Shown piece by piece: positions 5,750 to 46,518 of a stretch of 47,405 nucleotides of DNA. The stretch covers positions 1 through 47,405 of IMG/VR virus record IMGVR_UViG_3300027763_002674. The stretch is one strand, 5' to 3'. The DNA is from a virus. The notes beneath the pieces were generated by a model, which saw only the letters and a list, made by a program, of their open reading frames with translations, was not told where the DNA came from and made no database searches. A program made the position numbers and the translations under genes. Each line of letters starts with the position of its first letter. Positions within the stretch are counted from its first letter, which is position 1.

Positions 5750-6538
5750 TTATAAATGTTTCTTAAGTTCTCTTGCTCCTAATATCCATTTCTTACCGAT
5801 TGGATTTTGGATTGGTTTTCTTAGGAAAGCATCTACTTGCTTTTGTACTGATTTAGAAATTGGTTGGTATTCTGTATTATCAACAATGATAAAATTATTA
5901 CCAAACATTCCTTGAAAGTGTCCCATATTCTCTTGACATTTTTTCCAAATAGTGTCAACAAGTTCAGGAGATAATGTTCTACTTCTCTCAGCGTTTCTTT
6001 TTTGTGCAACTTCCAAAGATGTATTTACGAATACCATATAACAATCATATCCAAGCTCTTCAGCTTTTTTCATTTTGTTACGAATTTTAAGAACTTCATC
6101 GCCTGTTCCATCGATAATCATTCCCAATCTTCCGGCCTCATAAAACGCCTGTTGTTTTTGTGTAACTGCTTTAGCTTTATTACGAATTGAATCACCTTCC
6201 TCTCCAGCTATGTAAGCCCAAAAGTTAGGGTCATTATCTTTAATATTTGCTAAATCTTTTGGATTAATACCGTTCTTCTTAAGAGCTTGTTCAAATGCTG
6301 TATCTGAACTAAGTACTTTAAGTCCTCCAGCAGAAACAGAAGAAATATCACTCTTACCAACACCAAAGATTTCCTTTGCTGTGTAGGATTTACCACTACC
6401 AGGTCCACCTGCTAAAAAGATACACTTAAGAATACCAGGATCATCAACTCCTTCGGTGATTAATTCAACGAATAGTTTTGTTTGGACTTCTTTAAGGTCT
6501 TTTTGAATAGATTTAAGTTCCGATAGTAGTTGATTCAT
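5750..6538 (-). CDS. P-loop kinase (AAA_33 / zeta-toxin-like)
   Basis: The 262-residue protein has a Walker A motif GGPGSGKS at 44-51 after a hydrophobic strand, MIIDGTGDE as a probable Walker B or substrate region near residue 138, a Cys-Tyr-Met-Val-Phe-Val-Asn strand followed by an Arg-rich lid (QKRNAERSR), and IIVDNTE near the end. This is the order of small phosphotransferases related to polynucleotide kinase, AAA_33 and zeta toxins. Its first 29 residues form an amphipathic helix ending LITEG, a possible prohead-protease site. It overlaps the upstream membrane-protein gene by one base. Substrate unknown. Confidence 0.7.
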   Translation of the reverse strand: MNQLLSELKSIQKDLKEVQTKLFVELITEGVDDPGILKCIFLAGGPGSGKSYTAKEIFGVGKSDISSVSAGGLKVLSSDTAFEQALKKNGINPKDLANIKDNDPNFWAYIAGEEGDSIRNKAKAVTQKQQAFYEAGRLGMIIDGTGDEVLKIRNKMKKAEELGYDCYMVFVNTSLEVAQKRNAERSRTLSPELVDTIWKKCQENMGHFQGMFGNNFIIVDNTEYQPISKSVQKQVDAFLRKPIQNPIGKKWILGARELKKHL

Positions 6539-7980: not shown

Positions 7981-8012
7981 TAAGTATATCAATTTTCTTT
8001 TTTCAATCCAAA
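7981..8012 (-). promoter_or_regulatory. Promoter-like sequence for the HNH gene
   Basis: On the minus strand TTTG, 20 bases, then TATACTTA, a -7 box differing from TAnnTTTG at two positions. It also contains the recurrent TACTTATA octamer (7979-7986). The -33 half lies inside the end of the DUF2061 coding region. Confidence 0.4.
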
Positions 8013-8204
8013 TTTTATCCATTTATACCAAACTCTTTCGTGGATATAATATTGAATAGGTTTGTAAATCAATTCTGCTACCCCAAATGCAGCACCTACT
8101 TTAATTGAACCACTTATCCACCACATTAAAATAAAACCTATAAGCGTACTTAAAATACGATATGAGATGGTTTTAGCTATATGTCTCTTACGTTCTACTA
8201 TCAC
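7989..8204 (-). CDS. DUF2061 small membrane protein
   Basis: This 71-residue protein matches the DUF2061 pattern: ERKRHIAKTISYRILSTLIG at the N-terminus, a hydrophobic segment with MWWISGS, and the ending YKPIQYYIHERVWYKW (Tyr-His-Glu-Arg-x-Trp). As far as I know, DUF2061 proteins in flavobacteria and some other bacteria are often encoded beside the sulfate-activation genes cysC, cysD and cysN. Here an APS-kinase-like gene lies just upstream (8856-9326), so a link to sulfate or PAPS metabolism is plausible. It starts on the stop of the nucleotidylyltransferase gene. Confidence 0.75.
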   Translation of the reverse strand: MIVERKRHIAKTISYRILSTLIGFILMWWISGSIKVGAAFGVAELIYKPIQYYIHERVWYKWIKFGLKKEN

Positions 8205-8583: not shown

Positions 8584-8859
8584 CTATCCTTTTAATTTAT
8601 TGTATTGAATTTTGTTCTTTTGGTTTTCCCACTTCATTTCAACAGCCACCCACTTACCTCTAGGACAAGCTCCTATCTTTGGAGTATATATCTTAGCTTT
8701 AAGTGCACACATACACTCACCACAATGAATAAGTGGTGTATCTTTTTTAGAATCACAAGTATCACATATCTCCATACGAGCTATTGCTAATTCAGATTGA
8801 ATATCATTTGGGTTTAGCATTATACCCCATGCTTTGAATATTTCTGTTATTTTATTCAT
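8584..8859 (-). CDS. Stand-alone zinc-ribbon protein
   Basis: This 91-residue protein has Cys32, Cys35, Cys46, Cys49, Cys51 and Cys65 in the pattern CxxC...CxxCxC...CPxxKW, likely to bind one or two zinc ions. The same module with the same flanks (WGI, NPND, CP..xW) forms the N-terminus of the glycosyltransferase-like protein at 12257-13441. The gene overlaps the APS-kinase-like gene by 4 bases. A role as an adaptor or docking domain is an inference from its reuse as a fusion partner. Confidence 0.65.
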   Translation of the reverse strand: MNKITEIFKAWGIMLNPNDIQSELAIARMEICDTCDSKKDTPLIHCGECMCALKAKIYTPKIGACPRGKWVAVEMKWENQKNKIQYNKLKG

Positions 8860-9326
8860 ATTTTTTCAATATCTTTTAAATAATGAATTAATCTAGTAAA
8901 AGATTGAACTGGGTTTTCTGATGTTGTATCCAAGTCAAAGAAATTTTCAATTGGTGGTTCGTATCCCTCAACTTTAAATTGTTCTCTATTTCGTTTTCTA
9001 TTTGTATGAACATATATTTCAACAATATGTTCTCCACAAACTTTTTTGAATTCTTCTCTTAATTCTTTGTAAGGTGCTACCAATGAAACAACCACATCAC
9101 ATCCATTAGCTTGTAAAAAATATGATAGCAATTGTGCATTTTTAATGTTTATAATTCTGCCTTGTTCTGTATAATCTTGGTTAAGAGTGAGTTCTCTTAA
9201 ATTATCACCATCAATGTGAAATACATCCTTTCTCCAATTACGTTTTTCGGTTTGAAGAAATTCTTTTAGTTTTGTTCCTTGAACTGTCTTTCCTGCGCCA
9301 GGTTGGCCAGTAAACCAATATATCAT
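8856..9326 (-). CDS. Adenylylsulfate (APS) kinase-like protein
   Basis: This 156-residue P-loop protein has Walker A GQPGAGKT at 7-14, HIDGDNLR at 37-44, an RIINIKNAQ helix, SLVAPYKELREEF at 81-93, an IVEIYVHT strand and a YEPP segment near 122. This is the order of CysC-type APS kinases, which phosphorylate APS to PAPS, the donor for sulfotransferases. The usual ARAGxIxxFTGID stretch that helps bind APS is shortened and replaced (residues about 110-121), so the substrate could differ. DUF2061 lies close downstream and a sulfotransferase is encoded at 1854-2606, which supports a sulfation role. Confidence 0.7.
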   Translation of the reverse strand: MIYWFTGQPGAGKTVQGTKLKEFLQTEKRNWRKDVFHIDGDNLRELTLNQDYTEQGRIINIKNAQLLSYFLQANGCDVVVSLVAPYKELREEFKKVCGEHIVEIYVHTNRKRNREQFKVEGYEPPIENFFDLDTTSENPVQSFTRLIHYLKDIEKI

Positions 9327-13488: not shown

Positions 13489-15408
13489 CTATGGACAAAT
13501 GCCATCCAATGCTTCAACCCCGATTGTTGTTGCCGCAGTTATTGTTGCATTTGTTATTGTAAATGTTCCACCACTTCCATTTAATGTTTGACAAGTAACA
13601 ACACTATTACTATCTGTAAATGAAATTCGTTGACCAGGTGTATGACTACCATACGAAATAACTACATTATAAGTTCCTATTTGAGTACTTGTAAAGCTTC
13701 CATTATCACCAGCATTAAGATAAAAATCAGGACCGTATCCAATCCAAGTTACGGCAACTCCATTAATAGTCATACCTCCAATTGGTATATCCAACGAACC
13801 CACATTCTGAATGAAAATATCAACGCTTGGTGCTGCGGTTGTTCCTAATGTAGTAGTTGATGTACTAGTCGATGTTGAAGTACTTGTTGTTGGTGGTTGC
13901 GTTGTAGTCGTTGTAGTTGAAGTAGTAGCCGGACATCCTGTTAAACCTGAATTGGTGATACCAATTTGAGTTCCACCAGGGTTGGCAAATAATATGCTTG
14001 CAACAACTAATGTAGAAGGTACTCCTAAAACATTTCCAAAAACTCTATCTGTTACTGCAGCATATCCAATATTATAATTCGTTGAATATACAGTTCCGCC
14101 TCCATTACAATTTGTTAATTGATACCAAACTTGTTGAAGTGTAGTAGTAGTTGTAGTTCCCGCTTGAGTAGTTGTACTTGTAGTTGTTGGTGCCGCAGTT
14201 GTTGATGTTGTTGTTGTACTTGTTTCGCCCGGAGGTAATGGAACAGTTGTTGTACTTGTTGTTGATGAAGTACTTGTTGTAGTTGGTGCTTCGGTGGTTG
14301 TTGTTGTACTACTAGTCGATGTAGTTGATGTAGTTGAAGTAGATGTACTTGTTGTTGAAGTAGATGTACTTGTTGTTGAAGTTGAAGTTGATGTTGTAGA
14401 TGTAGTTGTTGTTGTTGGACAAACTGCTTCATTTTGGAATATACCAGTTGTAGAAGCAGGACATGTACCAACTCCATTATTATTTGCAGTCATTCCTCTT
14501 AAATTTGATATATCACCCGCACAAACTGCAGTACTTGTAGTTCCATCGTAAACATATATTTGCTGAAATGCTCCACTACAATCAAAATAATCAACATAAT
14601 CATCAACGCCTGTATTATTTGTAAATGTGTATTCAAAACAATTTGGAGATATATACCAATATTTACTTCCATTAGAATACCAACCAGATGGTGCTTTTGT
14701 AGTTAGTGTAATATCAGTATATAAATTAAGTCCATTTTGCAATAACTCACCAGTATAAGAATAATAATTTGTTTGTGATGCAAAACATGCTTGCCAATCC
14801 GTAGTTGCACTATACCCTAAACTAAACGTTTCAGGTGGTAACGTAGTTGTTGTTGATGTTGTTGATGTTGTTGGTGCAGCAGTTGTTGTTGATGTGGATG
14901 TACTTGTTGTTGATGTTGATGTTGTGGTTGTAGTTGAACAAGAACCAGTTGATGTTATTTCACCATTTGTATTACATAAAAACCAATCAATACCATTTGA
15001 ATAGTAACCAGCAACTACATGGTTTGTTAAAGTATTATCAAAATATAATGTTATACCAATTTGTAATGTAGCCCCAACCCCAGCATAGTATGTTATTGGG
15101 TCTGTTGTATATTTTGTACAAGCAGTAAAGAAGTTTGCACCATCACGACCTAATACAAATGATGTAATTCCTAATGTTGTTGTAGATGTTGTTTGACCTG
15201 TAATATTTAATACTATTGAATTTGTACAAGTTCCAGTTGAAGTAACAGTAATTTGCGTTGCTGCAGCGTTTACATCTACAAATACTCCAGTAGTTAATTG
15301 TGATTTGGTTACGGTGCTAGGGGTAACACTACCAACATTAGCCGTAAGGTTAAAGTTAGGTCCTAAATCAGCTCCTAAACCAGAATTAAGTGTTACTAAT
15401 ATATTCAT
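13489..15408 (-). CDS. Mucin-like adhesin with Cys-framed modules and Thr/Ser linkers
   Basis: This 639-residue protein alternates globular beta-rich modules with Thr/Ser/Pro linkers at about 158-193, 331-425 and 493-527. Two modules of about 55-60 residues (95-157 and 205-257) share the pattern ACxxx...YY...G..LY.D..LT...GxYSNG..W...C and recur in the next protein upstream. A different module lies at 258-330, and a further beta-domain at 528-639 contains IGGMTINGVAVTW. No signal peptide is present. Position beside fibre genes suggests an exposed virion adhesin. The linkers could be rigid spacers or glycosylation sites. Confidence 0.65.
   Translation of the reverse strand: MNILVTLNSGLGADLGPNFNLTANVGSVTPSTVTKSQLTTGVFVDVNAAATQITVTSTGTCTNSIVLNITGQTTSTTTLGITSFVLGRDGANFFTACTKYTTDPITYYAGVGATLQIGITLYFDNTLTNHVVAGYYSNGIDWFLCNTNGEITSTGSCSTTTTTSTSTTSTSTSTTTAAPTTSTTSTTTTLPPETFSLGYSATTDWQACFASQTNYYSYTGELLQNGLNLYTDITLTTKAPSGWYSNGSKYWYISPNCFEYTFTNNTGVDDYVDYFDCSGAFQQIYVYDGTTSTAVCAGDISNLRGMTANNNGVGTCPASTTGIFQNEAVCPTTTTTSTTSTSTSTTSTSTSTTSTSTSTTSTTSTSSTTTTTEAPTTTSTSSTTSTTTVPLPPGETSTTTTSTTAAPTTTSTTTQAGTTTTTTLQQVWYQLTNCNGGGTVYSTNYNIGYAAVTDRVFGNVLGVPSTLVVASILFANPGGTQIGITNSGLTGCPATTSTTTTTTQPPTTSTSTSTSTSTTTLGTTAAPSVDIFIQNVGSLDIPIGGMTINGVAVTWIGYGPDFYLNAGDNGSFTSTQIGTYNVVISYGSHTPGQRISFTDSNSVVTCQTLNGSGGTFTITNATITAATTIGVEALDGICP
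14134..14418 (-). repeat. Thr/Ser-rich low-complexity coding repeat (95 residues)
   Basis: This stretch encodes residues 331-425 of the adhesin: short irregular units such as TSTSTTSTST, broken by EAP, AAP and VPLPP. The DNA is built from ACT/AGT/ACA/TCA-type codons and creates artefact frames on the other strand. Shorter versions occur at 158-193 and 493-527 of the same protein and in the protein at 15458-16696. Confidence 0.85.
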
Positions 15409-15457: not shown

Positions 15458-16696
15458 TTAGAACGAACTACAGTCAACAGAATTACTTATATATCCACCA
15501 GTATCAATTTGTATTACATAACTAGTAGAAGCATTGTATTCGTTGTACCATGAATTTGAACCATTAAACGGTGTTGTCATTCCACTATCAGTATAGAATC
15601 TTGTCACTGTAAGCCATGTTGTATTATTACCATAAATCGTTTGACTATTATCATAATAAGCACAAGCATCATATTCAGTTCCCCCTGCAGTACTTACACC
15701 ATAAGCCGTTCCTGCCGATGTAGTTGATGTTGATGTGCTAGTTGTTGAAGTTGATGTTGTTGAAGTAGTTGATGTTGAAGTACTTGTAGTTGTTGGTGCT
15801 GCAGTTGTTGATGTACTTGTAGTTGTTGTGCTTGTATATGTAATAACCGCAGAACCACCAGCGTAAGTACAAATAGGTGCCGCAGTTGTTGTTGATGTTG
15901 TTGAGGTTGTAGTTGTGGTATTAGTACAACTTACAGCCGCTGTTTTAAATGTATATACACCTGAACTATCTCTTAATACAACATAATAAATTGCATTATA
16001 TAATCCAGTAAATGAATATGAAGTTGCTCCACTTAAACTTATAGGAGTTGCTGCTATTGCATTGCCGGCCGATGAACCAATTGCAATACTTTGATAAACA
16101 CCAGTACCTCCAGTAAACGCATTAGCTAAAATAGTACCAGTACCATCGATACCAATACCAGCACAACCAGGAGTTAATGTAAAATTAACAGGAGGTATTG
16201 TTGTTGTAGTTGTTGTACTAACACCAATATAAACACAATTGCATGAAGGATATGGATTACAATTACCAACTATTGATATCGTTGCGAATGATGAAGCTGA
16301 AACTGAGTTTTGTACTGCTTGTACATCAATCTGTTTCATTCTACTATAAAGTAATTGTCTAGGACCAGGAGTACCCTCACATTCAGTCCAATCTACATAT
16401 GAAGTTTTATCTGCTGCTACTGATACTCTGTAAATATACACCGATGGTATATTACATTGAACAGGTGATTTTAAATTTATCTCACCAGTATTGAAGTTCA
16501 TTTCATACACAAATCCACCAAATTTAATGAATTCGTATCCAGTTACAGGTTGAGTAAGTGTATTATTAAAATATACTTTACAACTAATTCCCAAAGTTGC
16601 ACAATCCGAATATACTGTTTGGTCTTCCGCTGAATTTGTGGAACAAAATGTACTATCGAATGTATTAAAATATTTTACACTATGCGAATACGCCAT
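15458..16696 (-). CDS. Second mucin-like adhesin, related to 13489-15408
   Basis: This 412-residue protein has a Cys-framed module at the N-terminus (about 15-80, FNNTLTQPVTGYEF..., ending in Cys) and another at the C-terminus (about 345-409, with RFYTDSGMTTPFNGSNSWY, ending VDCSSF). Between them lie a domain with DKTSYVDWTECEG, another with TGGTGVYQSIAIGSS, and Thr/Ser linkers near 158-168, 260-275 and 285-330. Modules and linkers are shared with the downstream protein, so the two probably arose by duplication and shuffling. A virion surface role is inferred from the fibre-gene context. Confidence 0.65.
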   Translation of the reverse strand: MAYSHSVKYFNTFDSTFCSTNSAEDQTVYSDCATLGISCKVYFNNTLTQPVTGYEFIKFGGFVYEMNFNTGEINLKSPVQCNIPSVYIYRVSVAADKTSYVDWTECEGTPGPRQLLYSRMKQIDVQAVQNSVSASSFATISIVGNCNPYPSCNCVYIGVSTTTTTTIPPVNFTLTPGCAGIGIDGTGTILANAFTGGTGVYQSIAIGSSAGNAIAATPISLSGATSYSFTGLYNAIYYVVLRDSSGVYTFKTAAVSCTNTTTTTSTTSTTTAAPICTYAGGSAVITYTSTTTTSTSTTAAPTTTSTSTSTTSTTSTSTTSTSTSTTSAGTAYGVSTAGGTEYDACAYYDNSQTIYGNNTTWLTVTRFYTDSGMTTPFNGSNSWYNEYNASTSYVIQIDTGGYISNSVDCSSF

Positions 16697-17452: not shown

Positions 17453-20400
17453 TTATATCATTTGGTTTACTGCTACTAAATAAAGATTGGATGAATCAAA
17501 TGATACAAATGATAAGATATCTTTCTTTCCACTTCCCGATGTTGGTAAGTAGAATGAACCAGATGGTTGTCTTACATTTGTACTAAACGATGCCGTTGAA
17601 TTTGTACCAGTTGTTACTAATACGTTTACCGATTGTCCCTCTCTTAAATTACTAGCAGATATGTGAGTTGTTACACTACTACCCAATTGTACCATAAAGA
17701 AGTTTGCTGCCGTAAAATCTAAAGATGCCGTATTTGATGCTACTGATTGTGATGTTGTATTAGCATATACCGAACCACTTATAAACATTGAACCACTCAC
17801 ACTCAATGAACCAGTAATCGTTTGATTGCCAATAAAAATATTAGAACCAGTTGTTGCGTATGAACCGGTCTTTAAGTTAAGTGATGCCGTATATGCTTCA
17901 ATTCCATTTACCTCATTTCTTAATGAACCAGTAAATGTATTTAATGATGCCGTTGTTTGTAATATTCTTGCTACAACACTATCGTTAGAACCAGTGTATG
18001 TATTTAAAGATGCCGTTGTTTGTTGTAATGATGCTGGCATTATAGAATCAAGAGAACCATCTCCTTTTAGAAACTGATAACCCGTTCCACCTTGCGTAAT
18101 AAATTTATCAGCGTTTATGTATTGGAAATAATCAATTGCGTTAAGAGGACCACCAGTTCCCGATAAAGATACTAGGGTTGAATTTGGTTTATCATATACA
18201 ACATCGATAATTGAATAGAAGCCTGAAAGACTTACTCTAGCAACAGCCAATCCAGTATTATCAAGAATATTTAAATTAGATAATGTAACAACCGAACTTG
18301 CGCTTGTAGTAATTGCGTTTCCAGTAGGAGTAGATGAAAATAATAAAGTATTAGATAGTGCTAAATTACCAGCAGTTACCGTAGCAACATAAACTTGTGG
18401 AGAATTTCTTACTATTACAACAGCCGAAGCGTTATTTACAACAAGACCCCATAATGTAGTAGAATTAAATACTACCGCAGGTGCTGCTCCACTAATCGTT
18501 ACCCCACTAGTACATTGGAAAGAACAACCCGTAGTTTCTAAGTAACCGGTATTAGTAACCGTCATTTGAGTGTCTACTGTTGTGTTATTGATATATACAG
18601 CCGCCGTAGTGTTTACAACTAAATTAGTCATTTTTATACCAGAAACACGACACGCTGCGTTTATTGTTAGAGTTCCAGCAATTGCCGTATTAGCTCCCAA
18701 TAATCCTAAAGCGAATATATAAGTGTTTGTGGTGGATATGGTTGGATTTTCTGTATAAGTTCCAGGGTGTAAAATAATCGTTCTTCTATCAGTTACACCA
18801 AAATTTGCAGCAACTATTTGTAAAGCCTTTGTAATAGTTGCAACAGGAGTAAGTAAATCACCATTACCAGTTGTATCGTTTCCGTCTACTTGGCTAACGT
18901 GGATTTCATAATCATACCCAGTAAATATTTGAGTTGATGAAGATACTATTGTTGCTGCTTTCAAAGATGCGGTATAAGCTTCAATACCACCAATTTCAGC
19001 TCTCAATGATGATGTTACAATTGCTAACGTACCATCTTTACCTATTTGAGAACCAGTAAATGCGTTCAACTCTACAGTTCCCTGAGCTACTCCTTTTATG
19101 AATAGAGTATCGTTAATATGAACTGAACCAGTAAACTCATGCTTATCTGATGATTGGTCACCTATTATATTAGACCCAGTTACAAATAATACCGATGAAG
19201 TTATAAATTCAGTATAAATTCTAGATGCTGTCAATTCACCAATTATTCTTACGTTATTTCCATTTACAACAATTGCTGATTTTAATGATGCTGTATATGC
19301 TTCAATACCACCAATCTCCGCTCTCATAGAACCAGTCACTATTGATAATGTAGTGTTCATCGATTGTTGAGAACCAGTTTGTGTATTTAAAGATTGTGTT
19401 GTAAAGTTTACCGAAGCGGTGAATGTTGATATTGTATTAGTTTGTCCAATTACAGAACCAGTAAATGCGTTTAATGCCCCAGTTACAAAGTGAATAGAAC
19501 CAGTTACCAATGATATTTGTCTATTTACTAAATCTTGTGAAGATGATTGAGTATTCATAGAACCAGTTGTAGAACTGATTCGCAAAAACACAGAATCAAA
19601 TGAAGATGTAGTTGTATTGATAGAACCAGTAGTTGAACTGATTTGTCTATTAACCAAATCCTGCGAACTACTTTGATTATTAATTGAACCAGTTGTAGAA
19701 CTGATTCTCAAAAACACAGAATCAAATGAAGATGTAGTTGTATTGATAGAACCAGTAGTTGAACTAATTCTTAAAAATACAGAATCAAAAGATGAAGTTG
19801 TTGTGTTAATTGCTCCAGTTACAGAACTAATACCTCTAAATACTAAATCAAAAGAAGATGTAGTTGTATTTATTGAACCAGTTGTAGAACTGATTTGTCT
19901 ATTAACCAAATCCTGCGATGAACTTTGTGTATTCATAGCTCCTGTCACAGAACTAATACCTAAAAATACAGAATTAAACGAAGATGTAGTTGTATTGATA
20001 GAACCAGTAGTTGAACTAATTCTTAAAAATACAGAATCAAATGAAGATGTAGTTGTATTTATTGAACCAGTTACTGAACTTATTCCTCTATTAACCAAGT
20101 CTTGTGAACTACTTTGGGTATTAATAGAACCAGTAACAGAACTAATACCTCTATTAACTAAGTCTTGAGATGCAGTTTGTGCGTTCAATTGCCCAGCTCC
20201 AATAGCAGAACCATTTAATATTATTGAACCAGTAAAAGTATGAGTATCATCACCACTGTTACCAAATTGACTAGAACCACTTTCAAATAGAATAGATGCA
20301 GATGTTACCTCAGTATGAAATTCTTGTGCAGTAAGCTTACCAGCAACTACCAAATTACCACCAATTGAGGTATTTCCAGTAATTGTTTGACTTCCTATGA

Positions 20401-20560
20401 ATGTATTAGAACCGGTTGTTGCACTAAATTGAGATGTAAATAAACTCAATCTTTCAACGCTCATTTGAATTGTTGTACCATCGTGAACAATTGGTACAAC
20501 CACTGTAGAACCTGAAATAGTTTGTATTAGAGGTAATTGGGATATCTTCTTATCTGCCAT
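17453..20560 (-). CDS. Long tail-fibre/spike protein with 21-residue repeats and beta-helix
   Basis: In this 1035-residue protein the N-terminus (MADKKISQLP, then STVVVPIVHDGTT) looks like a virion attachment domain. Residues 125-355 are eleven tandem 21-residue repeats of two kinds, one with TTTSSFDSVFLR and one with QSSSQDLVNR, each followed by ISSTTGS. Related Ser/Thr/Gly heptad-like segments continue to about 540. Residues about 550-820 (VSQVDGNDTTGNG, TIILHPGTYTENP) form a right-handed beta-helix of the pectate-lyase type common in tail spikes. The C-terminus is a beta-rich domain after LREGQSVNVLVTTG. Enzymatic activity cannot be judged. Confidence 0.8.
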   Translation of the reverse strand: MADKKISQLPLIQTISGSTVVVPIVHDGTTIQMSVERLSLFTSQFSATTGSNTFIGSQTITGNTSIGGNLVVAGKLTAQEFHTEVTSASILFESGSSQFGNSGDDTHTFTGSIILNGSAIGAGQLNAQTASQDLVNRGISSVTGSINTQSSSQDLVNRGISSVTGSINTTTSSFDSVFLRISSTTGSINTTTSSFNSVFLGISSVTGAMNTQSSSQDLVNRQISSTTGSINTTTSSFDLVFRGISSVTGAINTTTSSFDSVFLRISSTTGSINTTTSSFDSVFLRISSTTGSINNQSSSQDLVNRQISSTTGSINTTTSSFDSVFLRISSTTGSMNTQSSSQDLVNRQISLVTGSIHFVTGALNAFTGSVIGQTNTISTFTASVNFTTQSLNTQTGSQQSMNTTLSIVTGSMRAEIGGIEAYTASLKSAIVVNGNNVRIIGELTASRIYTEFITSSVLFVTGSNIIGDQSSDKHEFTGSVHINDTLFIKGVAQGTVELNAFTGSQIGKDGTLAIVTSSLRAEIGGIEAYTASLKAATIVSSSTQIFTGYDYEIHVSQVDGNDTTGNGDLLTPVATITKALQIVAANFGVTDRRTIILHPGTYTENPTISTTNTYIFALGLLGANTAIAGTLTINAACRVSGIKMTNLVVNTTAAVYINNTTVDTQMTVTNTGYLETTGCSFQCTSGVTISGAAPAVVFNSTTLWGLVVNNASAVVIVRNSPQVYVATVTAGNLALSNTLLFSSTPTGNAITTSASSVVTLSNLNILDNTGLAVARVSLSGFYSIIDVVYDKPNSTLVSLSGTGGPLNAIDYFQYINADKFITQGGTGYQFLKGDGSLDSIMPASLQQTTASLNTYTGSNDSVVARILQTTASLNTFTGSLRNEVNGIEAYTASLNLKTGSYATTGSNIFIGNQTITGSLSVSGSMFISGSVYANTTSQSVASNTASLDFTAANFFMVQLGSSVTTHISASNLREGQSVNVLVTTGTNSTASFSTNVRQPSGSFYLPTSGSGKKDILSFVSFDSSNLYLVAVNQMI
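19496..20188 (-). repeat. Eleven tandem 63-bp repeats inside the fibre gene
   Basis: The span is exactly 693 bases, which is 11 x 63. Units encode either NTTTSSFDSVFLRISSTTGS-type or NTQSSSQDLVNRGISSVTGS-type sequences. The mix of near-identical neighbours and two alternating kinds suggests repeated unequal recombination. Most units keep clean reading frame and length, so the array can expand or contract without a frameshift. Confidence 0.9.
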
Positions 20561-20634: not shown

Positions 20635-21183
20635 CTACTTTGGTCTTCCGTATAATCTCTTTGTGATTCTTTTATCCACCTTAGATAGTGAACGAGTGTA
20701 GTATCCATCACCTACAAATTGTACCTTTTTATCAGGTCCAACGATGTTTTGTATCTTTTCTTCATCTGTCACCACAGGCGCCCCAGATGATTTCATAATA
20801 TCTTCCATTTTCAAACTAGCTTCTAAAAACCATCCGCTTGTTTTACACAATTGGATAACCTTCTTAACTACATCTGATTTTGCCGATTTCTTATTGTTAG
20901 TACCCAGTAGGGCTATTTTGTTACCAAATTTGGTTTGCTTATATACAATGAATGCATCTGGGATATGGTCGGAATCTACATCTTTAAGTGCAGTTGCTTT
21001 GTATTTACTCTGCATTTCTCTCCAGCTATTTGCCGATAAATCCATCCCAGCGTTCAAATAGGTAGTGATATACATCTGCCATATTCCTTTCATACCGTCA
21101 TCATCTATCTTATTCAAATCCAAATCAATCCACTTATCAGATGGGATTTCCAATTCGGTTAATATATTGGAAAGACTTATCAT
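20635..21183 (-). CDS. Hypothetical protein with LxE leader and calcium-loop-like motif
   Basis: I can give no firm family for this 182-residue protein. It starts MISLSNILTE, a 10-residue leader ending in an LxE motif as in the two genes upstream. Residues about 40-70 contain a WREMQSKYKATALK segment followed by DVDSDHIPDAFIVYK, with a D-x-D-x-D-x-IPD acidic loop. FGNKIALLGTN, a GWFLEASLKMEDIM helix and YYTRSLSKVDKRITKRLYG follow. The layout is reminiscent of proteins seen near head and structural genes of T4-like marine phages. It overlaps the preceding small gene by ATGA. Confidence 0.6.
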   Translation of the reverse strand: MISLSNILTELEIPSDKWIDLDLNKIDDDGMKGIWQMYITTYLNAGMDLSANSWREMQSKYKATALKDVDSDHIPDAFIVYKQTKFGNKIALLGTNNKKSAKSDVVKKVIQLCKTSGWFLEASLKMEDIMKSSGAPVVTDEEKIQNIVGPDKKVQFVGDGYYTRSLSKVDKRITKRLYGRPK

Positions 21184-21347
21184 CTTGGTTCGTAGGTTTT
21201 TATTTTCTTTTCTAATTGAGTAAGCAATTTCATAATTTCAGGCTCCTTTGAGTGATTTACCTTTAATTGCCAAATAGCTTTTAATGATTCTCTTTGAGTT
21301 TGTGCGTGCATTTGGGCTTCACTTAATATATCCTTTAAACGTATCAT
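21180..21347 (-). CDS. Small protein (55 aa) with LxE leader
   Basis: A 56-codon frame from the ATG at 21347 to the TGA at 21180 exactly fills the gap between its neighbours. It starts as TAATG on the stop of the HAD gene and ends as ATGA on the start of the next gene, strong evidence of a real coupled gene. The product begins MIRLKDILSEAQMHA and is helical and charged, ending EKKIKTYEPR. The first ten residues end in LSE, like the T4-type capsid-targeting peptide. Function unknown. Confidence 0.75.
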   Translation of the reverse strand: MIRLKDILSEAQMHAQTQRESLKAIWQLKVNHSKEPEIMKLLTQLEKKIKTYEPR

Positions 21348-21877
21348 TAGAAATGCTTTACTTGTTGAATCTTTTGTTTAACATTTGGATAATCTCTCAA
21401 TCTTTTTCTAACTGCCATTATATTCTTTTCTGAATCATCTACGAAAAAAACATCATCATACCCTTCTTTAACTCTATCCTCAATCCAATCTGCTTTCTTT
21501 TCAGGGTTATTGTCACCCAATGCTATTACTTTAACACCATTTATTCCCAAATCCTTAATGAATTGAGATACGGGTCTTTCAGCTGCTCTAGCGGTTAGGA
21601 TATAAACTTCTCTACTACCACCACTACTAACCATTCTTCTCAACAATTCAACATATCCTTTTATAAGTTCCGGTCTTGTCACTTGCTGAAAATCTTTGAA
21701 ATCAAATTCATCCCCATCTCTAGTATCATACTTTGCGTATTGACCGGGTGATAGTTTTGTTTTCATTCCGTTTTTATGGGTAACATATATGAATGAATTG
21801 GTTTTGACAAGTGTATCATCAAAATCAAAAATTCTTAATTTTTTATCTTCCGTAAACAATGTTCTTGCTAATGGCAT
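21347..21877 (-). CDS. HAD-superfamily phosphatase with short leader
   Basis: In this 176-residue protein, IFDFDDTLVK at about 17-26 holds the nucleophile Asp of HAD motif I. ILTARA near 98-103 is motif II and FFVDDSEKN near 149-157 is motif IV; a Lys lies between them in NNPEKKADW. The small helical cap suggests a nucleotidase or polynucleotide-3'-phosphatase-like enzyme. The N-terminus MPLARTLFTE precedes the catalytic domain and ends in a xTE motif, similar in length to the leaders of the next two genes. Substrate unknown. Confidence 0.75.
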   Translation of the reverse strand: MPLARTLFTEDKKLRIFDFDDTLVKTNSFIYVTHKNGMKTKLSPGQYAKYDTRDGDEFDFKDFQQVTRPELIKGYVELLRRMVSSGGSREVYILTARAAERPVSQFIKDLGINGVKVIALGDNNPEKKADWIEDRVKEGYDDVFFVDDSEKNIMAVRKRLRDYPNVKQKIQQVKHF

Positions 21878-21878
21878 C

Positions 21879-22193
21879 CTATCCGTTTATTTGCTTCTTA
21901 GTCTTTGGGAGTGCTTTCTCTAACTTATCATTCTCTTTGGTAAGGTATTCAACTTTAACACTCAATGCTGCCACTTCTTTGGTAAGGTTTAATACCATCA
22001 TACGAAGTTCATCCTTTTCTTTACCAGCTGCTTCCAACAATCCTTCTAATTTAGAGATACGGTCTTTACAATCGTGTCTGATAAATTCCTCATCCTTTTC
22101 TTTATTGATAGCTCTCTTTTCGTAATATCTCCAAGCCCCCGTTCCACCTAATACGGTGATAGCTGTGATTATTACTGAATACATATTTTCCAT
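21879..22193 (-). CDS. Single-pass membrane protein with coiled coil
   Basis: The start is placed at the ATG at 22193; a TTG three codons upstream would overlap the previous gene. About 104 residues: an N-terminal transmembrane helix (MYSVIITAITVLGGTGAW), then about 75 residues of Lys/Glu-rich heptad coiled coil (ISKLEGLLEAAGKEKDEL, VAALSVKVEYLTKENDKLEKAL). The N-in anchor with a long helix resembles inner-membrane spanins or small membrane scaffolds. No lysis genes lie nearby, so a spanin role is only one option. Confidence 0.6.
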   Translation of the reverse strand: MENMYSVIITAITVLGGTGAWRYYEKRAINKEKDEEFIRHDCKDRISKLEGLLEAAGKEKDELRMMVLNLTKEVAALSVKVEYLTKENDKLEKALPKTKKQING

Positions 22194-22195
22194 AC

Positions 22196-22723
22196 TTAAC
22201 AAATTTTACACTCCTTTATTGGTTCTTCTTCCGTTTGAGGTAACGCTGCAGCCACATGCTCTACACCTTTTTTGTCAACGTATTCTTTTTTAATACTATA
22301 ATCTTTCTTTATATTAGAAAGTGTTTGTAATGCATTTTTTAATCTATCTTGAAATAATTTCTTTTGTTCAGGTGATTTAGTTGCAGATAATTTATCTTTT
22401 AATCCTTTGATTCTATTATTGAGATTTTGTATTCTTTCTCCAGTTGGAACTGTTTCTTCATCTACTGATTCTAATTTCAACTTAAAATGGTCCATTACAT
22501 CCCAAATATCATTATAACCCATATCACCCAAGTCATCTAATATTTGATTTCTATTTGCATTTGTTTTACCAGACACAAATATAGATATTGCTTTTTTAGT
22601 GCTATATGTTCCCTTATCGTAGAATTTCATTATTTCCTTTACATGAATATCGTTTCTAGACATTTCATTGAGGAATTGTTCTCTAATTACGGAACGGATT
22701 ATTTCTTTAAGTTGCTTTTCCAT
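22196..22723 (-). CDS. Hypothetical coiled-coil protein with amphipathic leader
   Basis: I do not recognise this 175-residue protein. It starts with an amphipathic helix EKQLKEIIRSVIREQFLNEMS, whose LNE followed by Met could be a T4-like prohead-protease site, then a small helical domain with KAISIFVSGKTNANRNQIL. A coiled coil occupies about 95-145 (IQNLNNRIKGLKDKLS), and the C-terminus has a CKIC pair. It is the first of five closely spaced small genes and follows a TATTTATA element. A head-internal or scaffold-associated role is a guess. Confidence 0.55.
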   Translation of the reverse strand: MEKQLKEIIRSVIREQFLNEMSRNDIHVKEIMKFYDKGTYSTKKAISIFVSGKTNANRNQILDDLGDMGYNDIWDVMDHFKLKLESVDEETVPTGERIQNLNNRIKGLKDKLSATKSPEQKKLFQDRLKNALQTLSNIKKDYSIKKEYVDKKGVEHVAAALPQTEEEPIKECKIC

Positions 22724-24886: not shown

Positions 24887-25576
24887 TTATTTTTTATAAC
24901 ATTTTACATAAATCCATTGTGGATGTCCATCATCCGAATAAGAATCTTTAACTTCGGTTGTAATATTTACAAAACCAATTTCAGTCAAATCTTTAATAAT
25001 ATCCTGTTCATTATTCACTCTGATATCACACATAGAATTTGTACCGGGTGCATCATAATAATTTTCAAAATAAGAAACTCTACGGCCTAATTGCGATTCT
25101 AAACCATAACCATATCCCATTTGAAAAGAAAACAAACCACCTGGCTTTAAAGTTCTTAGCAAATCCGTTATTAGTGATTTTCTAATATCGTAAACTGGTA
25201 TATGTTGTAATGCAATAGTTGACATTATAAAATCATATTCGTTATCTTTTAATTCAGATACATCAGTTCCGTTATTACAATACCAATTACTATTTTGTTG
25301 TATATACTCTTGTTCATTTTGAGTTATATTACCTTGCGATATATCTATACCATCTATTCTATTAAAATCGCATAAATTAAACATATTTGTTATATTTCTA
25401 CCCCTACCACAAGCAAAGTCTAAAGCAATTTTACCATCCCATTTTTCTTTATCTTTTAAATCACTTAATAGTATATCCCAATAATCAGAATTTCTATTAT
25501 GTTCTTCGTGATTTGAAGTTCCAGAAGCGTATTGCGCTTTCTGCATTTGTGTGTATTTGTTTTCTGTATTTATCAT
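24887..25576 (-). CDS. SAM-dependent methyltransferase
   Basis: This class I methyltransferase of 229 residues has motif I ALDFACGRGRNI at 51-62, RIDGIDIS as the acidic motif II, YDFIMSTIALQHIPVYDIR as motif IV/V, and LLRTLKPGGLFSFQMGYG as the post-VI segment. The Methyltransf_11/25 type acts on sugars, lipids or proteins; here a sugar is likely from the neighbours. The start overlaps the fusion gene by four bases. Confidence 0.8.
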   Translation of the reverse strand: MINTENKYTQMQKAQYASGTSNHEEHNRNSDYWDILLSDLKDKEKWDGKIALDFACGRGRNITNMFNLCDFNRIDGIDISQGNITQNEQEYIQQNSNWYCNNGTDVSELKDNEYDFIMSTIALQHIPVYDIRKSLITDLLRTLKPGGLFSFQMGYGYGLESQLGRRVSYFENYYDAPGTNSMCDIRVNNEQDIIKDLTEIGFVNITTEVKDSYSDDGHPQWIYVKCYKK

Positions 25577-26937
25577 TTTTTATAATTTTCTAAGTAATAT
25601 TTTAAATCTTCTGGAGTTCCCAATCCCCACATTTTATCAATGTTGAATGTTTTTATTTTCTTACAATCTGTAATTGCTTCGTTATAAACAGGACAAACAT
25701 AGAACTCATTATTAGTTCTGATATTCTTATCAATCATTTGTTCTGCATACTTTACATAATCAGAACCCTTTGCCCAATAGTAAACACCAACAGTTGCAAT
25801 ATCTGAAATTGGATTCTTCTCTTGTACTTCCGTTACATATCCATACTCATCCACTTTAGCGAATGACCATTTAGGATGTGTTGAATGGAATGATAGAATA
25901 CCACCATCAACTTTTTGTTCAATCATCTTATACATAAACTCATTACTATCCCACTCTAAGAATTGGTCAGAGTTTGCCATCAATAGTGGTGCATCTGAAT
26001 CAATAAATTCTTTTGCTAATAGAGTTGTACAAGCTGCTCCCTCTGTCAAACCATCTACTTCTACAATCTTACAATTAGGAGTGATTAGATTTAATAGAGT
26101 ATCTAAGTTGTACTTCTCTCTATGTTCTTTTTGTACTACATAAATAAATGTAGCATCTATATTTAGATTATCAACAACAACCTGAATCATTGGCTTTCCC
26201 TCCACATCAATTAGTGGTTTTGGAAACGTATAACCAGCTTGTGCAAATCTACTACCAGCTCCTGCCATTGGGATAAGAACGTTCATTTTACCACCTTGCC
26301 ATTTTGGTGTACTCATAACTTTATTTTCGTTTAATTTATTTACTATTTTTTCTAATGTCAAATCATGCGGATTATCTACTCTCAATACACTAGCTCTACT
26401 TCTACTTGCTGCCAATAACCCATGCGGAGAATCTTCTACAATCAAAGTTTCTTCAGGCAAACATCCCATCATACTCATAGCCTTCCAATACATTTCAGGA
26501 TGCGGTTTAGAGTTCTTTACATCCTCATTAGAGATGATTAAGTCCATATACTCAATTATACCTATCTTAGCCAACATAACCAACACAGACCTTCTAATTG
26601 AGTTTGAAGCACATGCTAACTTATATCCTTTGTTTCTTAATTCTTTAAATACTTCTATCAATCTGATATCAGGTTGTAACTCTGAAATAGCTTCAATGGT
26701 TAGATATTGTTTTCTATACCAAATATCATCATAGAATTCGGGATGTAATCCTTTATTCTTAGTAAGCATCTCAAGCTTTTGAGTTGTTTTCAATCCATCA
26801 TATGTAGATAGATGTTCTGCTTCTGATATTATATACTTCTCATCAATTTCTTTTAGAGCTTGATTTAATGTATCGTAGTGTATTTGTTTTGCTTCGACTA
26901 GTACACCATCTAAATCGAAAATAATTAATTTTGTCAT
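25573..26937 (-). CDS. Fusion of HAD phosphatase and sugar-phosphate nucleotidyltransferase
   Basis: In this 454-residue protein, residues 1-205 are a HAD hydrolase of the beta-phosphoglucomutase type: FDLDGVLVE at 7-15, SNSIRRS at 111-117, KPHPEMY at 144-150 and VEDSPHGLLAA at 167-177. Residues 218-454 are a nucleotidyltransferase: VLIPMAGAGSRF at 220-231 and FPKPLIDVEGKPMIQ at 238-252, with DGLTEGAACTTL and NSDQFLEWD. Linking a sugar-phosphate mutase or phosphatase to activation as NDP-sugar in one chain would channel an intermediate. Exact sugar unknown. It overlaps both neighbours by 4 bases. Confidence 0.85.
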   Translation of the reverse strand: MTKLIIFDLDGVLVEAKQIHYDTLNQALKEIDEKYIISEAEHLSTYDGLKTTQKLEMLTKNKGLHPEFYDDIWYRKQYLTIEAISELQPDIRLIEVFKELRNKGYKLACASNSIRRSVLVMLAKIGIIEYMDLIISNEDVKNSKPHPEMYWKAMSMMGCLPEETLIVEDSPHGLLAASRSRASVLRVDNPHDLTLEKIVNKLNENKVMSTPKWQGGKMNVLIPMAGAGSRFAQAGYTFPKPLIDVEGKPMIQVVVDNLNIDATFIYVVQKEHREKYNLDTLLNLITPNCKIVEVDGLTEGAACTTLLAKEFIDSDAPLLMANSDQFLEWDSNEFMYKMIEQKVDGGILSFHSTHPKWSFAKVDEYGYVTEVQEKNPISDIATVGVYYWAKGSDYVKYAEQMIDKNIRTNNEFYVCPVYNEAITDCKKIKTFNIDKMWGLGTPEDLKYYLENYKK

Positions 26938-33814: not shown

Positions 33815-35413
33815 TTATACCATTTTTATATTAATTCCGCCTTTGAATGTAAGACCTCCACTTATTCTTGATGTTTGTGATTTACCAAACCTATTATACA
33901 ATATTGTAGGTGTACCTCCCCAAATACTTCTTCTACTTGACCAATCATTATTTCCTAATGTTGAGTATATATCGCCATTTGAATTTAAAATTAAAGAATT
34001 TTTAATATCCTTTGGTTTTGCTTTTGGGTTTATTTCCAATAAAAGTGCGGCCACTCCTGCAACTTGAGGGGATGCCATAGATGTACCACTAATATTCATT
34101 TGTTTATAAGATGCATTTTTAAAATATGTACCAGTAGTAAATTCATTTGTAGTTGAACACGCTGCCATAATAGCTGTACCGGGTGCGTAAATATCAACAC
34201 CAGGGCCAGTTTCACTATAAGTTGCTTTTTGGTCAGTAAATATATCATATGAACTGCTATCAATAGAACCAACTTTAATTGCATTTGTAGAATATGGAGA
34301 TGAACCTCTTTGGTAATAAAATGTTCCTGTTAAGTTACCACCAGATATTGTTGCTGTATTATTATAATCAGGTCCTACGGAAGTATCTATTTTAAAACCA
34401 TAGTTTCCCGCAGATATGCAAACATGAATTCCTTCTGCTATCATTTCATCTATATCAATATCAGTAGATGATACTCTATTATTTGCGTAATAGTATGTAC
34501 CATCATAATTTTGCGTAAACCCGTAGTTTGATTCTCTATTAGCAGCTACTGTTGCTGTTGTATTTGTATATGATGTACTTCTATAATTTATAGCTGATAA
34601 CGTAGTAAAATAATAGACATATCCCCAACTCATATTAACTACAGTTGGTCTTTTAGCTCCTGTTTTAGGGTCATTTGGTTTGTTTCTATGCCAAAGTTTA
34701 ATAGCATCAAATGCATCTGTAATAGATATACCAGTTCCACTATCGCTAGTGCCTTCCAACCCACTTAATTTTTGAGAATATATTCTTGATTTTTTAGCCC
34801 AACCAAAATATTTTCCAGCAATAATAGATGCAACATGTGTACCATGTCCATTATAATCTCTATAATGATTTGCGGATTGAGTTCCACTAATACCACTAGC
34901 AGTGTACCAATCTATTTGTTGGACTCTACTAACTCCAAACTCATCTTGAAATTCAGGATGGTCTATTTGTAATCCACTATCTTGTATAACAACATCAACA
35001 CCATCACCAGTCAAACAATATTCATATGATGATGTAGTTGTTGTACCAATACCATATGCATTTGAATCAAAATTAGTACGAATCAATCCCCAATTTATAT
35101 AAGCTCCACTATCCGTACTTGCTGGTATTTTTGTATAATCTCCCCTTTGCAATGCCTTAGAAATCATCTTAAGGTCATCTCTATGGTCTGGTGGTATTTC
35201 TACATCAAAAACCCTTTCATCTAATTTAAGTTGTTCCGCTTCCTCATCTGTTAGTAAATACCAGCATTGACGAAGAGATGCAGGTCTTTCGTTTGTAAAT
35301 TCTACTCTACGATTTGGGATATATAACTTACCACCATCGGTATCACTTTCTATATCATTCCAAAAGCCATCGTAATCTACATCTTCTTTTAAGATAACGT
35401 TATATTCTCTCAT
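33815..35413 (-). CDS. Subtilisin-like serine protease (S8 family)
   Basis: The 532-residue protein has a complete S8 catalytic set: VVIQDSGLQIDHPEF with Asp145, NGHGTHVASIIAG with His190, SAGNYG with oxyanion Asn337, and SGTSMASPQVAGVAALLLE with Ser445. Residues 1-130 form an N-terminal domain rich in charged residues (not an obvious I9 propeptide). The C-terminal 50 residues (RISGGLTFKGGINIKMV) are beta-like and could anchor it to a virion protein. There is no signal peptide. It directly follows the collagen-like fibre gene (7-base gap), so a virion or fibre-maturation role is likely. Confidence 0.85.
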   Translation of the reverse strand: MREYNVILKEDVDYDGFWNDIESDTDGGKLYIPNRRVEFTNERPASLRQCWYLLTDEEAEQLKLDERVFDVEIPPDHRDDLKMISKALQRGDYTKIPASTDSGAYINWGLIRTNFDSNAYGIGTTTTSSYEYCLTGDGVDVVIQDSGLQIDHPEFQDEFGVSRVQQIDWYTASGISGTQSANHYRDYNGHGTHVASIIAGKYFGWAKKSRIYSQKLSGLEGTSDSGTGISITDAFDAIKLWHRNKPNDPKTGAKRPTVVNMSWGYVYYFTTLSAINYRSTSYTNTTATVAANRESNYGFTQNYDGTYYYANNRVSSTDIDIDEMIAEGIHVCISAGNYGFKIDTSVGPDYNNTATISGGNLTGTFYYQRGSSPYSTNAIKVGSIDSSSYDIFTDQKATYSETGPGVDIYAPGTAIMAACSTTNEFTTGTYFKNASYKQMNISGTSMASPQVAGVAALLLEINPKAKPKDIKNSLILNSNGDIYSTLGNNDWSSRRSIWGGTPTILYNRFGKSQTSRISGGLTFKGGINIKMV

Positions 35414-45306: not shown

Positions 45307-46518
45307 TTATCTTCCTACTTCTGATAGGTATTTAGCTTTCATTTCTTCCCAACTGATTCCAATAGCATCTATGTAGAATAAGTGCTCAGGTTTAATTCTA
45401 CCCTCATCATGTAGTTTTGTGTATCTACTGATTGCATGTTTCTTCCACCATTTTTGAATGTATTCATTACCTTGCTTAAACTTATCCTTAAGGATTAATT
45501 TATCTTCGGTAATTTCATTTCTAAGAAATTCACATCCGTTCTCATACATCATAGCCATATAAACACCTCTCTTAAATCCGTGATGATATTCAGTTCCCTT
45601 AATACCACACTCTTTAAAAATCTTACCTAATATCTTTTGTTTGATACCACTAACAGGTCCGTTTCTATCATAACCCATATTAGCACCATTACGAGCTCTT
45701 TCTTCGGTGATATTTTCAGCATACCAATCTGCATGATTTTCTTTAATCCATTGATGCCACGGGTCATAAAATTTATCATCGGGCTTCAAACTAATTTTAC
45801 CAGCTGATTCTCCTAATGTTTTAAATAAAGGGATGCCATTATATTGAGAATGGATACCATACAAAGATGTTGTACCTACTGCAATCAAAACATTTTTATA
45901 CTTTGAATTCCAATATGCTCTAACTTCCGGCGTAGTTGTCATCATAGCGATTAACTTACCACCTAAAAAGTTATAACCTAATGGCTGAGTACATACAATA
46001 GTAGAAGCGATAGTAGTGTTATTCAACTTACCATCAACAAATTTATTATCTTTAGTCCAACCAATGAAGTTATCTCTAACTCCCATAGCGGTTACATCGG
46101 ATGCTAATGAAATTTGTCCTAATAGTTTTCCACTAACTTTATCCTTTACATTAATCTTTACATTACGGCCAGGGTTTGCTGTAAAATCCATTGTGTGAAT
46201 CATACGTCTTACCGCTGCCCACTTAGTAGATTCCTTCGGGTCTTCCACAATCTCAACGTAAGGGTCTAACGATTCAATTTCTTTTATCGTTAGCTCCTTA
46301 TTGTTGATATCAGTTGGTTTCCATTGTAAATCGTAATAAGATGCGATTTGGGATTTTGCTTGAATCATTGTAGGTTCTTGCAACTCTACCCACTTCTTAT
46401 ATAATGTTTGTTCTTGAACAGACATCGTCATAAGGTAATCCATATTTTCTATTAACTTAGTCTTTTCAGATTCAAAGTCAAAGACAGGTTTTTGTGGTTC
46501 AGTATCCCAAAAGCTCAT
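45307..46518 (-). CDS. DUF4338 / DruA-like protein
   Basis: In this 403-residue protein the central region GKLLGQISLASDV, RDNFIGWTKDN (148-158), TIASTIVCTQPLGYNFLGGKLIAMM (169-193) and TTSLYGIHSQY (216-226) agrees with my memory of the DUF4338 family. That family includes DruA of the Druantia anti-phage system and related phage proteins. The N-terminal 100 residues are helical, and the C-terminal part is basic (KWWKKHAISRY). The biochemical function of DUF4338 is not settled. Location between the sliding clamp and dUTPase suggests use in DNA metabolism rather than defence. Confidence 0.5.
   Translation of the reverse strand: MSFWDTEPQKPVFDFESEKTKLIENMDYLMTMSVQEQTLYKKWVELQEPTMIQAKSQIASYYDLQWKPTDINNKELTIKEIESLDPYVEIVEDPKESTKWAAVRRMIHTMDFTANPGRNVKINVKDKVSGKLLGQISLASDVTAMGVRDNFIGWTKDNKFVDGKLNNTTIASTIVCTQPLGYNFLGGKLIAMMTTTPEVRAYWNSKYKNVLIAVGTTSLYGIHSQYNGIPLFKTLGESAGKISLKPDDKFYDPWHQWIKENHADWYAENITEERARNGANMGYDRNGPVSGIKQKILGKIFKECGIKGTEYHHGFKRGVYMAMMYENGCEFLRNEITEDKLILKDKFKQGNEYIQKWWKKHAISRYTKLHDEGRIKPEHLFYIDAIGISWEEMKAKYLSEVGR

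Follow-up and report, generated by a model that had tools for sequence, protein, structure and literature searches.

Five proteins of a freshwater, T4-related virus that infects bacteria begin with short leaders that, judging from their sequences, are most probably prohead-targeting propeptides of the T4 type, removed by the prohead protease from cargo that would be packed with the DNA and enter the next host. All five are encoded in the window, by which we mean the whole stretch of DNA that was analysed (47,405 nucleotides of IMGVR_UViG_3300027763_002674), and the host of this phage probably belongs to the Bacteroidetes. An earlier note on this DNA had read the leaders as T4-like capsid-targeting peptides, which is a reading supported here by (i) the observed motif and its enrichment over chance, (ii) key positions that match those of T4, (iii) the swapping of the motif among unrelated proteins, and (iv) a prohead protease and a matching capsid site in relatives of the phage.

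Our open reading frame (ORF) check recovered all five proteins on the minus strand, with the same coordinates and N-termini as in the earlier note. Three adjacent proteins have the 10-residue starts ending in Glu that had been described: MPLARTLFTE, followed by DKKLRIFDFDDT, in a 176-aa HAD protein (21347-21877); MIRLKDILSE, followed by AQMH, in a 55-aa protein (21180-21347); and MISLSNILTE, followed by LEIP, in a 182-aa protein (20635-21183). The genes of these three are strictly consecutive, whereas the gene for the 175-aa protein (22196-22723), which had been counted with them as a neighbour, is separated from them by a gene (21879-22202, minus strand) whose product is a leaderless 107-aa membrane/coiled-coil protein. 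The order of transcription is 175-aa, 107-aa, HAD, 55-aa, and 182-aa, with neighboring genes that either abut or share a few bases, suggestive of an operon. Also confirmed were FLNE in the 175-aa protein (residues 17-20) and LITE, followed by G (residues 26-30), in a 262-aa kinase that is encoded at a distance from the cluster (5750-6538). The surroundings of the cluster in the window are accessory genes, with no head gene near, and elsewhere the window encodes a sliding clamp and a clamp loader of the T4 type. Adjoining the leader cluster is a 1035-aa fibre-like protein (17453-20560) with many SSFDSVFLRISSTTGSINTTT-type repeats.

In the T4 internal protein IPIII, the capsid-targeting leader (CTS) acts in targeting mainly through residues 4 and 7 and in processing through residues 8 and 10 (PMC9026906). 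The 182-aa, 55-aa, and HAD proteins each have a leader of this kind, with about 10 residues, hydrophobic residues at positions 4, 7, and 8, and Glu at position 10; the leaders of the 175-aa protein and the kinase are longer than the T4 type, at 20 and 29 residues, and still end in xxE. The leader of the 182-aa protein (21154-21183), with a predicted cut after Glu10, is conserved in relatives, where it reads MIRLTEILNE, MIKLGNIMNE, MIKLKDLLFE, or MIRLKDLLKE. Although this protein has no match in Pfam, its AlphaFold2 model (pLDDT 83, pTM 0.78), in which the first ten residues form a separate and less confident helix, finds its best Foldseek matches in the PDB among GNAT-type acetyltransferases (prob 1.00, best E 5.8e-5, TM ~0.5), and the predicted mature part (20635-21153) is, on this model, assigned a GNAT-like acetyltransferase fold. 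Cutting the 55-aa protein behind its leader (21318-21347) would release a small protein of 45 residues (21180-21317), which is defined by its ORF only and has no relative in the loci and ORF sets compared. Behind the HAD leader (21848-21877) lies a predicted mature HAD-superfamily phosphatase (21347-21847), with its DFDDT motif soon after the cut; it matches PF11019 (1e-7) and PHROG 415, polynucleotide kinase (8.7e-10); no match was found among cultured phages by tblastn or among PDB sequences.

The kinase leader (6452-6538) would be followed by a mature P-loop kinase (5750-6451) that is AAA_33 / zeta-toxin-like, with matches to PF13671 (AAA_33; 9.6e-10), PF06414 (3.9e-6), and PHROG 12810 (2.9e-41), and only weak P-loop matches among PDB sequences. 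The 175-aa protein, with a 20-residue amphipathic leader (22664-22723) and a predicted mature helical part (22196-22663), is a short member of a modular polyprotein family, and its own model is helical and of low confidence (pLDDT 70, pTM 0.44). In its longer relatives, of up to ~500 aa, modules follow one another with ESVNE, SVTE, TINE, or the like between them; moreover, one module (AKYDTYHKTYTSAI...) is found alone elsewhere, behind leaders such as MIKLKDLFNE and MIKLKRLLKE. From this arrangement we infer that the modules of these polyproteins may be cut apart. Close relatives of the 175-aa protein reach 349 aa (L001:8645-9679) and have an extra region with a likely membrane helix, which is lacking in the window copy, as if modules were gained and lost. 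The window also encodes an APS-kinase-like protein (8856-9326; PF01583, 5.9e-16), near a DUF2061 membrane protein (7989-8204).

We searched the 47-kb window for capsid and protease genes and found none, so the prohead protease, which the earlier note had proposed to look for in the rest of the genome, was located in relatives instead, where the major capsid protein gp23 (PF07068) and the S77 prohead protease (PF03420) are both present in 12 of 21 long relatives. Since the window is without these genes, the link from the leaders to protease and capsid runs through the relatives; a capsid search of the contigs closest to the window yielded one fragment only. Aligned with T4 gp21, the relatives' proteases keep the GEL[ND]HP and G[IV]SSRG motifs and have LLI near the N-terminus, which is LLIE in most of them. 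The capsid proteins of all 12 relatives carry LxE or VxE followed by A, in the same alignment column as FLTE followed by A in T4 gp23; the capsid consensus is therefore of the xxE type, as the capsid-targeting reading implied, and not unrelated to it. Among cultured phages, the capsid protein has its nearest relatives in Flavobacterium phage vB_FspM_immuto and in Microcystis phage Mel-JY01 (51-52%), with Rhodothermus phage RM378 at 39%. The group thereby falls among the far-T4 phages, whose proposed hosts are Bacteroidetes (PMC7198788). Phage immuto likewise has leader-type N-termini, such as MISIYNILKE, and encodes the protease. In the literature searched, there was no virion proteomics of immuto, Mel-JY01, or the window phage.

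The leader, which the earlier note had proposed to look for on other phage genes, is present on many, including some within the head operon of relatives: in relative G017, four consecutive leader genes lie between the terminase and portal genes, and in G013 others are found between the protease and capsid genes. In G004, a domain homologous to the 175-aa protein is part of a core-like protein of the prohead region, adjoining the protease. This placement beside protease and scaffold genes, together with the cutting of T4 gp22, 67, and 68 to fragments, favors an alternative in which prohead targeting and cutting are real, with the proteins serving as parts of the scaffold or core, to be degraded or retained in the head, rather than as injected effectors. 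We regard this as unlikely, because (i) three of the window proteins have enzyme folds (HAD, P-loop kinase, and GNAT) that a scaffold does not need, (ii) the window genes have accessory genes, and no head gene, as their neighbors, and (iii) the cargo set differs greatly among relatives, as the T4 internal proteins do. Proteins of 971-1155 aa with an xxE leader are also encoded near the head operon of G021 (L205:7049-10270), and similarly in G002 and G004; the G021 protein combines a CTP_transf_like nucleotidyltransferase domain with DUF5661, and a similar immuto protein is annotated as NadR.

The leader behaves as a transferable tag. In its strict form, MI[KR]Lx(D/N)(I/L)LxE, it begins 58 non-identical proteins, the remainders of which fall into 24 families with no similarity detectable at E 1e-3; the 55-aa protein bears a leader of this type. 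An explanation at the codon or RNA level was ruled out: the leaders differ in their Leu codons and in the use of GAA or GAG, and the 25 upstream bases are unconserved, which indicates selection on the peptide and not on the DNA. Among relatives of the HAD protein, the kinase, and the 175-aa protein, the upstream sequence is swapped and xxE is kept at the junction. Of the distinct upstream sequences of the kinase core, 7/7 end in [LI]xE, followed by GV, including the 11-residue MAILLKPLLNE in G017, and the 175-aa core has xxE exactly at the junction in 19/19 distinct upstreams, four of which are 130-223 residues long and mostly unrelated. For the HAD core, [LIVFM]xE occurs within 8 residues in 40/46 distinct upstreams, against 10.4 expected from shuffling, and some distant relatives, such as L066 and L070, are without the site. 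As a negative control, the 107-aa protein was examined in 40 relatives, none of which has a leader. In an all-against-all comparison, a leader-bearing protein that aligned inside another had a site at the boundary in 46% of cases, versus 22% at random positions, whereas the figures were 20% and 17% where neither protein had a leader; these percentages are descriptive, as related sequences are not independent.

These junctions also bear on a second alternative, in which the N-terminal amphipathic helix with Glu10 binds a membrane or a partner and is never cut. Amphipathic helices are common at N-termini, and such a helix alone could be used for other binding; however, the Glu is the fixed residue, xxE also marks internal module junctions where there is no free N-terminus, and the match both to the T4 positions and to the capsid site would have to be coincidence. 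We consider an uncut helix very unlikely.

Enrichment of the motif was measured over the ORFs of the window and of five long relatives (G002, G004, G013, G017, and G021), with the filter [LIFMVYA]xx[LIFMV][LIFMV]xE and Glu at residue 10. The filter matched 34 of 1728 ORFs, compared with 4.0 expected from internal rates (P ~3e-20), and shuffling of residues 2-20 gave a mean of 4.06 and a maximum of 11 in 1000 shuffles. In the window alone, 4 of 61 ORFs matched, against a shuffle mean of 0.16, and 0 of 1000 shuffles reached 4. When other residues were substituted at position 10 of the filter, the highest count was that of Leu, with 20 at position 10 versus 14.8 at neighboring positions, so that among the residues tried only Glu peaks sharply at 10. 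The consensus of the 34 matches is M-I-[KR]-L-x-[DN]-[IL]-L-x-E, in which the filter imposed the hydrophobic residues at 4, 7, and 8 and the Glu at 10, but not Ile2, Lys/Arg3, or the Asp/Asn bias at 6. Since the filter was chosen from the window leaders and the T4 leader, the agreement with the T4 positions serves as a consistency check; support independent of that choice comes from the excess over shuffles and from the peak at 10. As controls, the same filter picked out IPII, IPIII, gp24, and the hypothetical gp61.1 among 249 ORFs of T4, and matched 0 of 67 ORFs in half of the crAss-like phage phi14:2. T4 gp61.1 (L256:18966-19130; 54 aa) starts with MKTFKEFIKE, which is a good fit to the T4 CTS, and may possibly be an overlooked internal protein.

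Several candidates were rejected. A plain [LIF]xE near the N-terminus was too weak to be useful as a search motif; the fourth window match, a subtilase (33815-35413), has K or A in place of E10 in most relatives and was set aside as a coincidence; and MTKLIIFDLDGVLVE (25573-26937), which fits the broad pattern, was dropped because the match resembles the first strand of an HAD domain. Although L-x-E is a weak motif, hydrophobic N-termini are common, xxE by itself occurs at ~1.5% per position, and the subtilase is a false positive, chance is scarcely credible as an explanation of the leaders, given the excess over shuffles, the sharp peak solely at position 10 and solely for Glu, and the conservation across relatives.

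Under the preferred reading as prohead-targeting propeptides, the short amphipathic leader helix would bind the prohead core during head assembly, and the S77 protease would cut after the Glu of L/I/V/F-x-E. The freed mature proteins, namely the GNAT-like acetyltransferase, the 45-residue protein, the HAD phosphatase, the helical modular protein, and the P-loop kinase, would remain in the head and pass with the DNA into the next host, where they might help to take it over early or to counter its defences. Binding, cutting, packaging, and injection, as well as this role, are what we infer from the sequence patterns. By analogy, a counter-defence role appears a reasonable possibility, since T4 Ip1-3, which were identified as a family by their signal sequence, block type IV restriction enzymes once they are injected (PMC12373910).

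Among known systems, the closest likeness is to T4 IPI-IPIII, which have a CTS and are processed by gp21: common to both are an N-terminal leader of ~10 residues with key positions 4/7/8/10 and Glu before the cut, the sharing of one leader type by unrelated proteins, an S77 protease, and an LxE-type capsid site. The phages studied here differ in their consensus, which is MI[KR]Lx(D/N)(I/L)LxE instead of MKTYQEFIAE, in the much larger number of tagged families across the clade, in cargo with enzyme folds, in leaders that in some proteins have 20-30 residues, and in polyproteins that seem to contain internal cut sites. T4 Alt, an injected ADP-ribosyltransferase, and the vertex protein gp24 (MAKINELLRE) are likewise an enzyme and a shell protein with a short propeptide ending in Glu. 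In phiKZ and SPN3US, a Glu-specific prohead protease strips N-terminal propeptides from many head proteins, including inner-head and ejection proteins, but these follow SxE or AxE and are mostly longer, in contrast to the LxE and short leaders found here. An N-terminal signal also directs P1 DarB to the capsid, where 30 residues suffice, and the Dar proteins, unlike the proteins with these leaders, are without a common consensus.

The T4 internal-protein type of leader is already known; what looks new is its scale, the enzyme-type cargo, and the modular polyproteins, which seem to have cut sites within them. Most of the injected phage proteins known so far come from T-even, P1, and phiKZ-like phages, and targets are known for few of them. 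The use of the tag on dozens more proteins in the relatives suggests a large, mostly unstudied cargo delivered at infection; a readable leader makes the discovery of packaged proteins a sequence search in an abundant group of aquatic phages, and it marks dozens of uncharacterised proteins as probable first-minute effectors. The leaders and the protease are offered for testing in a cultured relative. A wider proposal, which we hold tentatively and lean slightly against, is that far-T4-like Bacteroidetes phages carry a large, interchangeable arsenal of proteins packed in the head, among them "beads on a string" polyproteins, which the prohead protease would split there into several separate proteins, and enzymes (GNAT, HAD, zeta-like kinase, and Acb1-related 2H phosphoesterase), so that counter-defence would precede phage gene expression.

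The 2H phosphoesterase is encoded in G013 (L233:13078-13650) behind the leader MIKLKNLIKE, and has both HxT motifs intact (HCTLL/HMTVA); it matches 2_5_RNA_ligase2 (6e-6) and, weakly, the anti-CBASS protein Acb1 (8e-4), and could possibly be a head-packed anti-CBASS enzyme. The window itself encodes a homologue of Druantia DruA (45307-46518; PF14236, 65.8 bits) in the phage replication region, with 78% identity in G004. Two further window proteins (13489-15408 and 15458-16696) contain long Thr/Ser-rich, mucin-like stretches (TTTTSTTSTST) and are perhaps surface or fibre proteins.
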